Of a DNA stretch of 64,000 bases, positions 4,838 through 20,613 are shown piece after piece. The stretch is from Candidatus Ferrigenium bremense (lineage in GTDB: Bacteria; Pseudomonadota; Gammaproteobacteria; Burkholderiales; Gallionellaceae): positions 1 through 64,000 of the forward strand of contig JAGRPI010000004.1 in the NCBI GenBank assembly GCA_019449635.1, read 5' to 3'. The notes below the pieces were generated by a model, which did no database searches, was not told the origin of the DNA, and saw only the letters and a list, made by a program, of their open reading frames with translations. Position numbers and translations under genes: made by a program. The stretch's first letter is position 1. Every line of letters starts with the position of its first letter.

Positions 4838-4981
4838 GAAGCTGTTTAAAAAAATCAGCGAGCGGCTGTCAGGCGGGGGAGGCCGGAGCGCAGGAACCGG
4901 AGTGTACGCAAGAGTACATGAGGATTCCGAGCACCGCACGACCCCGCATCGCAGTCGCGCAGCATTTTTTTATCAGCTTCT
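4837..4981. repeat. MITE-like element, right copy flanking hupE
   Basis: Begins at the hupE TGA with GAAGCTGTTTAAAAAAATCA and ends TATCAGCTTCTGA. Read on the minus strand it aligns with the 4038 element over most of its length, including GTCGTGCGGTGCTCGGAATC. It lacks the extra 45 bases of the left copy. Confidence 0.85.
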
Positions 4982-5789: not shown

Positions 5790-5930
5790 CCGCTCGTGGT
5801 GAGCTTGTCGAATTATGAATGGCCGACGGAAAGGCTGTTCACCCTTCGACAGGCTGATAAAACAACTAGCCATTCCACTTGGTTGTCAAAAAAACGACAA
5901 CCAAGTAGCTGGTTATCAGGGCGAACGGTT
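5790..5930. repeat. Inverted repeat interrupted by a second repeat
   Basis: Left arm CCGCTCGTGGTGAGCTTGTC and right arm TTCGACAGGCT ... CAGGGCGAACGG. The right arm is split by a hairpin of another family (5864-5914), so one element appears inserted in the other. It fills the space before the dienelactone hydrolase gene. Confidence 0.75.
5864..5914. repeat. Covarying hairpin element, copy 1
   Basis: Outer stem AACTAGC/GCTGGTT and inner perfect 11-pair stem ACTTGGTTGTC/GACAACCAAGT around an A7C loop. Shares GCCATTC and CCAAG-N-(A/C)GCTGGTTA flanks and the A-rich loop with the copies at 20455 and 20511, but the five stem pairs next to the loop differ. Confidence 0.8.
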
Positions 5931-17846: not shown

Positions 17847-20408
17847 GTGCGAAAGTCACTACTGAAACTGCTCGGGGTCGTTGCTGCTTTAACACTATCC
17901 ACATGTGTTTCCGCCGTTGGCATGGGCGGAATCAAAGTGTCTTCCGCTTTGGGGCAGCCGCTGAAAGCCGATATCGAATTGGTGGCAGTCAACAAGGCCG
18001 ACAAACCCAGTCTGGTTGCCCGTCTTGCGTCGCCAGATATCTACCGGGGAGCCGGACTGGAATACCCGTTTGGTACCAAGTTCAAGTTTCAGATCGAGAG
18101 CCGCGCGAGCGGCGAGTCGTATATCAGGGTAAGCAGCGCGCAACCGATCAATGATCCTTTCGTGAGCATGCTGGTCGAGTTGACCTGGGCGTCCGGCAAA
18201 CTGCTGCGCGAATATACTTTCCTGCTCGATCCGCCTGACTATGTTGCGGAACAACCCAAGCCGGTTGAAGTGCAAGCCGTCGCACCGGCAGTGCAAGCCG
18301 CGCCGCCGGAAACTGCCGCCAAACCTCTTGAACAAGCCCCGGTAGCTGCAGCGCCGGTTGAGAGTCAGCCTGCCGAGAAACCAGCCAGCAAACCGGCGAT
18401 TGCAGAGCCGGCCAAACCGGCCGCAGTCGCGCCAACGGAAAAGAGTATCGCGACGGGTAACATTACCGTCCACCGCGGCGACACACTGAACAAGATCGCC
18501 ATGCAGAACAAACCGGCTGAAGTGAGCCTGGAGCGTATGCTGGTCGCGCTATACCGTGCCAACGCCGATCAATTCGACGGCAAGAACATGAACCGCATCA
18601 AGGCCGGCAAGATTCTGCGCCTGCCCGACCAGAGCGCGTTGATGAATGTGGCGCAGTCCGATGCGGCAAAGGAAATCCGCGCCCAGACAGCCGACTGGAA
18701 TGCCTACCGGCAAAAACTGGCTGCTGCCCCGGCCGCCAGCCAGCCACAGGAAGCCCAGCAAGTTGCCACCGGCAAGATCGCTAGTTCGGTTGCAGACAAG
18801 GCTCCTGTCGCCAAGGAGTCCGCCAAGGAAGTGCTGAAATTGTCCAAGGGCGAAGCTCCGGGAGACAAGGCCGCCGCCGGTGCGGCAGGCAAATCCGCGA
18901 CTGCCCAGGACAAGAAGAATGCCGAGCAGGAAGATGCGATCGCCAAGGAAAAGAGCCTGAAGGAAGAGCAGGCGCGCGCCGCATTGCTGGAAAAAAACCT
19001 CAAGGACATGGAACGCCTCGCCCAATTGAAATCCGAGGCTGCAGCACTGGCGGCGCAATCGCCTGTCGCGGCATCCCCAAGCGCGGTATCTGCAGTCGCC
19101 GCCGCTTCCGGGGTTGCTGCAGCCAGCGAAGTCAAACCGGCAGCCGTTGCCAAGCCCAAACCCAAGCCACAACCGGTGGTTGTGCCGCAACCTTCCCTAG
19201 TGGACCAGATTCTGGGCGAGCCGCTTTATCTGATTGGCGGAACGGCGATTCTGCTTGGCTTGGGCGGCCTTGGCTTTATGTTGAGCCGCCGCAAGCAAAC
19301 TGCAGCAGTCGAAGGAAAAGATGAGGATGCCGGCTCGGTAACCGGCCAGCTTACCGCACCGGTCGCTCCTTCTCCCGAGACTGGCGATTTCACCAGTGCG
19401 ACAGGAGGGCATCCCGCAGCGGCTCCCGCCTCGGATGAAGTCGATCCGATCAACGAGGCGGACCTGTTCCTGAATTTCGGCCGCGATGTGCAGGCGGAGG
19501 AAATATTGAAGGAAGCCTTGCAGAACACGCCCAACAATCATCAGATCCATCTCAAGCTGCTGGGTATTTACGCCAATCGCAAAGATGTAAATTCCTTCTC
19601 GGCCATTGCGCGTCAGTTGAAGGATGCGGGCGATGAAGAGGCATGGCAGCAGGCTGCGGCAACGGGGCGCAAGCTCGAGCCGAACAACCCGATGTACGGA
19701 GGTGCCGGAACCATCGAGGATGACGGCAGCGCGACCAGGCAGGTGACCGCCGCGCACGATGCGGCCGCAGCACAGGGAGCATCGGCACCCGATGTGGATT
19801 TTGATTTGGGTGGTGCTACGGAAAAAACCGCGACTCTGTCAACTGACGACAGGGCTGCGGCTAAAGCAGAAGCCATGGATTTTGATGTGACTTCCACTGG
19901 CCCATCGCTCGCTGCCCCGACAGGCATGGATTTCGATATCACTTCGACCAGCCCTTCGATGCCGGCGGCTGTTGGAGAGAAGGAAGCCGCGCTACCTAAT
20001 CTGGACGACCTGATTTTTGACGTGACATCCACCCATCCACCCATGCCGGCGGTGCAACCGGAGGTCGAACCGGCAAAAGCCGCGCAAGCCGACGAGGGCG
20101 GCATGGAGTTCACGCTCGACTTCCCGATTGAAGAGGCGGTTGCGAAGCCTGCACCTGCGGCGCAACCAGCCGAGGCCGGCTTGGCGGGCATCAGCCTGAA
20201 TCTGGACGACATCGGAGCGCCGGGAGAACCGGCATCGGATGACAAGGACGAGCATTGGCATGAGGTTGCCACCAAACTCGATCTGGCCAAGGCCTATCAG
20301 GAAATGGGCGATGCGACCGGCGCGCGTGAAATCCTCGAGGAAGTCTTGCGCGAGGGCGATGCGGGGCAGCGTGAGGCAGCGCAGTCCATGCTCGACCAGC
20401 TCGGCTAA
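17847..20408 (+). CDS. fimV: FimV-type inner membrane protein
   Basis: 853 residues from a GTG start with AAGGTGA upstream. Order: signal peptide, the N-terminal FimV domain (IKVSSALGQPLKADIELVAV), a proline/alanine linker, a LysM domain at about 204-265 (ITVHRGDTLNKIAMQNKP), a coiled region, one membrane helix at about 456-478, an acidic cytoplasmic part and the C-terminal FimV motif (LAKAYQEMGDATGAREILEE). FimV binds peptidoglycan and helps type IV pilus, type II secretion or polar organisation. The cytoplasmic part has three FDVTST-like repeats. Confidence 0.93.
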   Translation: MRKSLLKLLGVVAALTLSTCVSAVGMGGIKVSSALGQPLKADIELVAVNKADKPSLVARLASPDIYRGAGLEYPFGTKFKFQIESRASGESYIRVSSAQPINDPFVSMLVELTWASGKLLREYTFLLDPPDYVAEQPKPVEVQAVAPAVQAAPPETAAKPLEQAPVAAAPVESQPAEKPASKPAIAEPAKPAAVAPTEKSIATGNITVHRGDTLNKIAMQNKPAEVSLERMLVALYRANADQFDGKNMNRIKAGKILRLPDQSALMNVAQSDAAKEIRAQTADWNAYRQKLAAAPAASQPQEAQQVATGKIASSVADKAPVAKESAKEVLKLSKGEAPGDKAAAGAAGKSATAQDKKNAEQEDAIAKEKSLKEEQARAALLEKNLKDMERLAQLKSEAAALAAQSPVAASPSAVSAVAAASGVAAASEVKPAAVAKPKPKPQPVVVPQPSLVDQILGEPLYLIGGTAILLGLGGLGFMLSRRKQTAAVEGKDEDAGSVTGQLTAPVAPSPETGDFTSATGGHPAAAPASDEVDPINEADLFLNFGRDVQAEEILKEALQNTPNNHQIHLKLLGIYANRKDVNSFSAIARQLKDAGDEEAWQQAAATGRKLEPNNPMYGGAGTIEDDGSATRQVTAAHDAAAAQGASAPDVDFDLGGATEKTATLSTDDRAAAKAEAMDFDVTSTGPSLAAPTGMDFDITSTSPSMPAAVGEKEAALPNLDDLIFDVTSTHPPMPAVQPEVEPAKAAQADEGGMEFTLDFPIEEAVAKPAPAAQPAEAGLAGISLNLDDIGAPGEPASDDKDEHWHEVATKLDLAKAYQEMGDATGAREILEEVLREGDAGQREAAQSMLDQLG

Positions 20409-20414
20409 TCATGG

Positions 20415-20575
20415 CTTTGTATAGCCATCTGACAAGTTGGTAAACGCGTTGCATAGCCATTCTGCTAAGTCACCAAAAGACGATGACCAAGCCGCTGGTT
20501 AGCTCTGCATGGCCATTCAACTAAGCTGGCAAAAAACGCCAGCCAAGTTGCCGGTCAACGCCAACAAAGTCATTG
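20415..20575. repeat. Cluster of covarying hairpin elements downstream of fimV
   Basis: Two clear copies (20455-20501 and 20511-20557) and a worn piece on the left. Constant parts: GCCATTC, CTAAG, loop AAAA(G/A)AC, CCAAG and GCYGGTYA. The five bases next to the loop pair in both but differ: TCACC/GATGA (one mismatch) and CTGGC/GCCAG. Copy 1 at 5864 has TTGTC/GACAA. Confidence 0.8.
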
Positions 20576-20578
20576 GTT

Positions 20579-20613
20579 AACGGCAGTCCGCTTCCGGGCT
20601 GCCGTTTTCTTTT
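20579..20613 (+). terminator. Rho-independent terminator after fimV
   Basis: Stem AACGGCAG/CTGCCGTT around an inner CC/GG, followed by TTTTCTTTT. It lies directly before the TTG start of the next gene, so it either ends the fimV message or partially attenuates read-through. Confidence 0.8.

Follow-up and report, generated by a model that had tools for sequence, protein, structure and literature searches.

The three hairpins of the window (the whole stretch of 64,000 nucleotides that was analysed), two of them behind fimV, belong to a dispersed family that is a mobile DNA element rather than an RNA motif. It is probably a non-autonomous palindromic element of the REP or Rickettsia palindromic element (RPE) kind, for which we propose a HUH step acting in trans. 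The evidence throughout is comparative and the assembly is a draft. To our knowledge, direct evidence of movement has long been lacking for small bacterial palindromes. The present family offers dozens of exact before-and-after sites in one genome, junctions that follow a precise rule (C^T without duplication), parallel insertion into the same gene (mfd) in two species and strong structural covariation, so that both mechanism and shape recognition are directly testable. New features are, besides the family as such, the many exact empty sites, a preference for landing in other repeats, nesting in frame and a stem covariation with statistical support.

Hairpins of the window and distribution of the family

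The original prediction had described three hairpins in the window whose apical arms change together with a single mismatch, two of them behind fimV and ahead of a terminator. All of this is borne out by the sequence, with the following features:

5840–5928, +: host repeat interrupted by the element, CACCCTTCGACAGGC / element / TCAGGGCGAACGG (junction match C23:5854)
5855–5866, +: class-1 5′ leader, TGATAAAACAAC, preceded by the target C at 5854
5867–5915, +: class-1 hairpin, 49 nt (67.5 bits; DNA folding z −5.1)
17847–20408, +: fimV/hubP, upstream of the nested hairpins (TIGR03505, NCBIfam FimV_Cterm, and TIGR03504)
20422–20440, +: left arm of an outer hairpin of the same family, split by two inner copies (by eye against intact relatives)
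20446–20453, +: class-2 leader of inner copy A, GCGTTGCA
20454–20501, +: hairpin of inner copy A, apical stem TCACC/GATGA (75.8 bits)
20502–20509, +: class-2 leader of inner copy B, GCTCTGCA, joining copy A directly
20510–20557, +: hairpin of inner copy B, apical stem CTGGC/GCCAG (71.1 bits)
20561–20579, +: right arm of the outer hairpin, CCAAC..GTCA..TGGTTA (by eye)
~20581–20613, +: terminator-like inverted repeat and T run behind fimV, outside the element

The hairpin at 5867–5915 consists of the foot TAGCCA/TGGTTA, a middle stem, the apical stem TTGTC/GACAA and an A-rich loop; the only mismatch among the three apical stems is a C.A in that of copy A. At fimV, two tandem class-2 copies (leader GCnnTGCA) split one outer hairpin. 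A single stable combined fold of this nested locus is weakly supported, with a DNA folding z of only −1.67 for the whole 179 nt (11 of 200 shuffles as good).

When the fimV stretch was searched by BLAST, 27 matches came from its own genome. The original prediction had also proposed a covariance-model search of this and related genomes, and that search uncovered a dispersed family: model R1, built from ten copies and run against the 2.41-Mb draft genome at E ≤ 0.1, returned 132 matches in the window's own genome, nearly all far below E 0.1. The set of 131 copies used below lacks the window copy at 20502 and adds a weak place, C6:4288, which is absent from the 132 matches. Matches were found in 102 of 120 genomes and 14 of 15 genera of the family, taken as Gallionellaceae from record titles (Gallionella, Sideroxydans and Ferrigenium are named among those listed), and in 24 of the 25 genomes of the genus, own genome included. 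No hairpin match was found in 16 single genomes from other families, and an order-level sample gave matches in 17 of 200 genomes, 11 of these 17 lying in six other families. The copies are diverse (129 distinct of 133) and old, which is a point against the preferred reading as far as current activity is concerned. No description of this element in Gallionella or Sideroxydans was found in the open-access literature.

Pairing and covariation of the stem

The consensus is a three-part stem: the TAGCCA/TGGTTA foot, the middle stem, and, beyond a conserved bulge (mostly AA or AG facing CA), a six-pair apical stem closed by the A-rich loop. Stem changes in the further copies are not random. In the 129 distinct copies 94.1% of cells pair, against 83.2% after shuffling and 33–34% when slid by one column, and double changes occur at 14 of the 17 stem pairs, in 231 cells against a shuffled mean of 60.4 (none of 500 shuffles as high). 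The original prediction had suggested a significance test by R-scape. In an imitation of that program, not the program itself, with a null set of 60 alignments based on a FastTree tree, 4 of 2211 column pairs were significant (E < 0.05), all four in the stem: 31–59, at which all four Watson–Crick pair types occur, 32–58, 33–57 and 23–67. The remaining 13 stem pairs fell below significance, several of them hardly varying. Judged from these aligned copies, the stem is shown to stay paired while its letters change.

Palindromes are corrected by template switching between their arms, and the paired changes could have arisen by such mutation between the arms of imperfect palindromes rather than by selection for shape. 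The occurrence of all four Watson–Crick types at single pairs fits this explanation; however, the foot and the middle stem are equally palindromic yet hardly vary, and mismatched stems persist, the loop-proximal pair 33–57 being mismatched in 24 of 127 scored copies. Eight pairs of copies with matching flanks were found, only one of them (L051/L108) being an orthologous pair between records, too few to separate selection from switching. We regard such a mutational origin of the paired changes as unlikely.

A structured RNA or 3′-UTR element in transcripts (a stabiliser, attenuator or sRNA), spread as a by-product, would also show compensatory change and good hairpin folding (median z −4.77 for 131 copies against mononucleotide shuffles), and the fimV copies do precede a terminator-like repeat. 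This explanation is nevertheless highly improbable, because orientation with respect to flanking genes is near-even: of 81 copies, 25 are co-directional sense, 18 co-directional antisense, 11 divergent and 5 convergent. Moreover, no Rfam family matches the hairpins at the gathering score, the fimV site is one among ~130 unrelated sites, and the copies, which lie mostly in DNA repeats in either orientation, are seamless insertions into unrelated repeats and coding frames. The undescribed structured RNA motif, one of the two possibilities originally raised, was given up on these grounds. The sole Rfam match in the window lies elsewhere (4844–4919, −) and is to sX9, a Xanthomonas sRNA family (54.2 bits against a gathering score of 44).

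Element boundaries and empty sites

In the main form, a leader of 12–13 nt (TGATGnAACnAC) is joined to a hairpin of 42–49 nt, for a total of usually 60 nt. Alignment of the flanks places the conserved block TGATGnAACnAC directly 5′ of the hairpin, and similarity drops abruptly before this block and after GGTTA, the 3′ foot that forms the very end of the element. The limits of class 2 are less certain than those of class 1. Of 81 copies examined, 63 were scored as class 1; 52 of these have a C immediately 5′ of the element, ten a T and one a G, and on the 3′ side 57 have a T, four an A and two a C. For the 102 class-1 copies of the 131, a C precedes in 95 (a 12- or 13-nt leader being allowed) and a T follows in 96, with C^A sites in 3. 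Total length could be set in 95 copies, of which 68 measure 60 nt and 12 measure 54 nt; it is a multiple of three in 81, which are not independent events, since related copies inherit their length. A subset of nine class-1 copies in genome G000 combines a 47-nt hairpin with a 13-nt leader, which keeps the total at 60 nt.

Empty sites were sought by removing the element, joining 40 nt from each side and searching the 0.54 Mb fetched of the genome. The joined flanks matched an unoccupied place across the junction for 55 of 101 class-1 copies, whereas control joins between flanks of different copies did so for 2, 5, 5, 5 and 7 of 101. The host repeat at 5840–5928 of the window has its unoccupied form at 11 places elsewhere in the genome. 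No target-site duplication was found at closed empty sites, either in the own genome or in the valS and mfd orthologues; a MITE with terminal inverted repeats (TIR) would be expected to leave one. On this comparison of sequences, insertion is shown to be exact, after C and usually before T, with no target bases duplicated or lost, and the targets are shown to be mostly pre-existing palindromic repeats, own copies included.

The hosts comprise CCCTTCGACAGGC^TCAGGGCGAACGG, entered in both orientations, CTCCTCCCC^TGACAAGGGGAGG, CTC^TCCCGC..GCGGGAG, CACGTTAC^TGGCGAAGCCA and a CGTC-type repeat (C4:8153), as well as a truncated tRNA-Phe fragment adjoining an intact tRNA-Phe gene. At this last place (L207:1473–1566) the truncated 5′ part of the tRNA is split by an antisense hairpin copy, and the intact gene stands ~130 bp downstream (1692–1767). 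Self-insertion was also seen: 13 of 131 copies directly follow another hairpin end, although three of the 13 stand at contig ends, where the assembly may have duplicated them. Locus L019 has three layers, with a hairpin inside a TIR element inside a hairpin inside a further repeat.

Some copies do lie within a larger repeated block, and one could imagine from them that larger repeats recombine or convert one another and so spread the copies, with no transposition at all. The exact 60-nt differences between otherwise alignable orthologues and the many unrelated host repeats leave this barely conceivable. The block in question is the TIR element (GGAACCTCTGATTAAGTC..), which carries a hairpin at L019 1250–1850 (reverse strand), L188 6300–6700 and L193 10800–11200, and which we take to be perhaps an IS5-like MITE. 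At L019 the TIR element has in turn entered another hairpin, apparently duplicating CTAA.

Proposed mechanism and search for a mobilising enzyme

For the mobile element, we propose that a TnpA_REP-like HUH nuclease/ligase acting on single strands and provided in trans would recognise the bulged hairpin by its shape, cut the element at both ends and join it into C^T sites of single-stranded palindromes; the letters of the apical stem would then drift freely provided that pairing holds. According to the available parts of PMC8266576, TnpA_REP cleaves REP sequences at CT when they are single-stranded (in one case at CA as well), and the enzyme of E. coli requires a bulged stem, the upper part of which serves it only as structure. 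The present family, with its seamless C^T (rarely C^A) junctions, its bulged hairpin and its variable but paired upper stem, resembles this in vitro behaviour, a likeness and not membership. A mobile element recognised by shape was the other possibility originally raised; it is supported by the seamless insertions, the matching empty sites and the covariation confined to the stem, recognition by shape being what we infer.

No linkage to a Y1_Tnp gene was found that would name the enzyme. None of 33 Y1_Tnp loci in the genus has a hairpin nearby, which counts against the preferred reading. Of 20 further loci three have one, and in the two inspected closely the copies stand among other repeats: both copies at L218 lie inside the gene's own GTAG-type GTAGGGCGGGT repeats, and one copy at L211 lies beside repeats of another kind. 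The RAYT-like genes of these two loci (L218 in G013, L211 in G007) are flanked by GTAG-type repeats (GTAGGGCGGGT.. and GTAGGGGCGATTCG..) unrelated to the hairpin. Linkage to RAYT was rejected, the association with Y1_Tnp loci being inconsistent. Neither G083 (one contig, 33 copies) nor G099 (34 copies) has a Y1_Tnp or IS110 transposase match. Among recurrent neighbour genes, no family stands beside copies in more than five loci, and the largest clusters (at most five loci) look like housekeeping genes, as judged from their sequences without a family search. No preference for the G-rich strand was seen (21 of 42 copies, with local skew noisy over stretches of at least 7 kb); single-strand transposition on the lagging strand would predict such a preference, and this result therefore counts against it. 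Given the absent Y1 linkage, the Y1- and IS110-free genomes G083 and G099 and the lack of strand preference, the enzyme may have been lost, may act rarely in trans or may be of another class.

One such class would be an IS110-type bridge-RNA recombinase moving the element in trans, which also uses CT cores and REP targets. IS621 enters REP elements with a CT core (available parts of PMC11208160), most left ends of the present element read CT, and G000 has two IS110 matches. Against this, the right end reads A|T instead of CT, so the two cores do not match, and some sites are C^A (3 of 102); there is also no Transposase_20 match in G083 or in G007, which has 62 copies. Because the cores are unequal we hold an IS110 route to be quite improbable, and linkage to IS110 was rejected, copies being present without association to it. 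The likeness to the IS110 elements found in REP (IS621 and ISPpu9) extends to palindromic landing sites and the CT junction (PMC11208160, PMC8450116, in the portions available), but the present element has no internal gene, shows AT at its right end where the same core dinucleotide (CT at the left) would be expected, and occurs in genomes without an IS110 match. Contig 1 of G104, a one-contig genome without a hairpin match, gives nine equal-score matches of one IS110-family transposase.

A close likeness in form is to REP sequences of the GTAG superfamily and their TnpA_REP/RAYT. In the accessible parts of PMC8266576 and PMC3733652 these are short, bulged, high-copy palindromes with CT (rarer CA) junctions and a free upper stem, occurring as dimers, in clusters and occasionally in genes. 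The present element shares the bulged imperfect palindrome and the C^T junctions. Unlike GTAG REPs, it has no unpaired GTAG at its 5′ foot, which reads CTAG (class 1) or ATRG (class 2) with TAG/TRG paired in the stem; it has a 12–13-nt leader and a longer hairpin, its copies do not consistently flank a Y1 gene (0 of 33 and 3 of 20 loci), and genomes with many copies lack a Y1 match. Nesting is known from REP dimers in palindromes (Anabaena GTAG-15, T. roseum GTAG-23 and H. neapolitanus CGTC-1), although REP-free targets were not found for two of the hosts in the part of PMC3733652 that treats them, whereas unoccupied targets are abundant here. IS200/IS605 MITEs have a fixed tetra- or pentanucleotide 5′ target and hairpins at both ends; in the present element only the preceding C and the following T are strongly conserved, and there is a single terminal hairpin.

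Copies inside genes

By a home-made codon score, whose thresholds for coding are rough here as in the orientation count of 81 copies, and a crude gene caller, 23 of the 131 copies lie in coding ORFs, 19 in sense (18 of them in one phase) and 4 in antisense. In public genomes, 8 of 92 tested copies are in sense, all in that same phase, and 2 in antisense. As the common form carries an open frame on its sense strand, genes can accommodate copies, and an in-frame copy is mostly read as D-x-T-T-S-H-S-T-R-L-..-S-Q-V-A-G-Y. The copy-carrying ORFs, named from their Pfam domains, include sucA, mfd, valS, aroA-cmk, glnD and lpxK, and further cobB/Q, lysA, murD, def, a RluD-like gene, acrB and tsaD. An AlphaFold model of the copy-carrying peptide deformylase was uninformative, with a mean pLDDT of 48.

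In-gene palindromes have been described for Rickettsia (RPEs) and several REP-bearing species (PMC3733652 and PMC10969869, in the parts available). Like RPEs as portrayed there, the present element enters, in frame, genes whose functions are unrelated and often essential, and the frame stays open through it. It differs from RPEs in sequence and host class and in length, 60 nt against ~150 bp in the available account (PMC10969869). RPEs belong in part to the CGTC superfamily (RPE-4, RPE-6); a CGTC tag is absent from the present consensus, and the element lands mainly in other repeats. In-frame peptide insertion into core proteins, best known from Rickettsia, is thus also found in free-living iron oxidisers, by way of nested repeats. 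More tentatively, the family might be a hyperparasitic, shape-recognised palindrome of 60 nt that lands in host REP-type repeats, owes its movement to a single-strand recombinase that is neither Y1/RAYT nor IS110, and survives in essential genes as a 20-residue peptide by virtue of a length divisible by three; we consider this compound picture possible but rather doubtful.

Relatives show exact empty sites for both valS and mfd. The valS of G021 has neither host repeat nor hairpin and reads ..AGRSGESVMLQ, that of G012 has the host repeat alone as a REP peptide (APSPDKERAGGEVSIM), and in that of G000 a REP peptide of this kind is interrupted, after APSP, by DETTSHSTRLSKDDSQVAGY. For mfd, the 20 residues are missing from the orthologue in G020 (92% identical); that of G022 has been entered independently, at a different site of the same repeat. 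Across the valS and mfd orthologues of the genus (L277–L306 and L307–L336), different in-frame REP peptides stand at the same two positions in different species, and these sites therefore tolerate repeated insertion.
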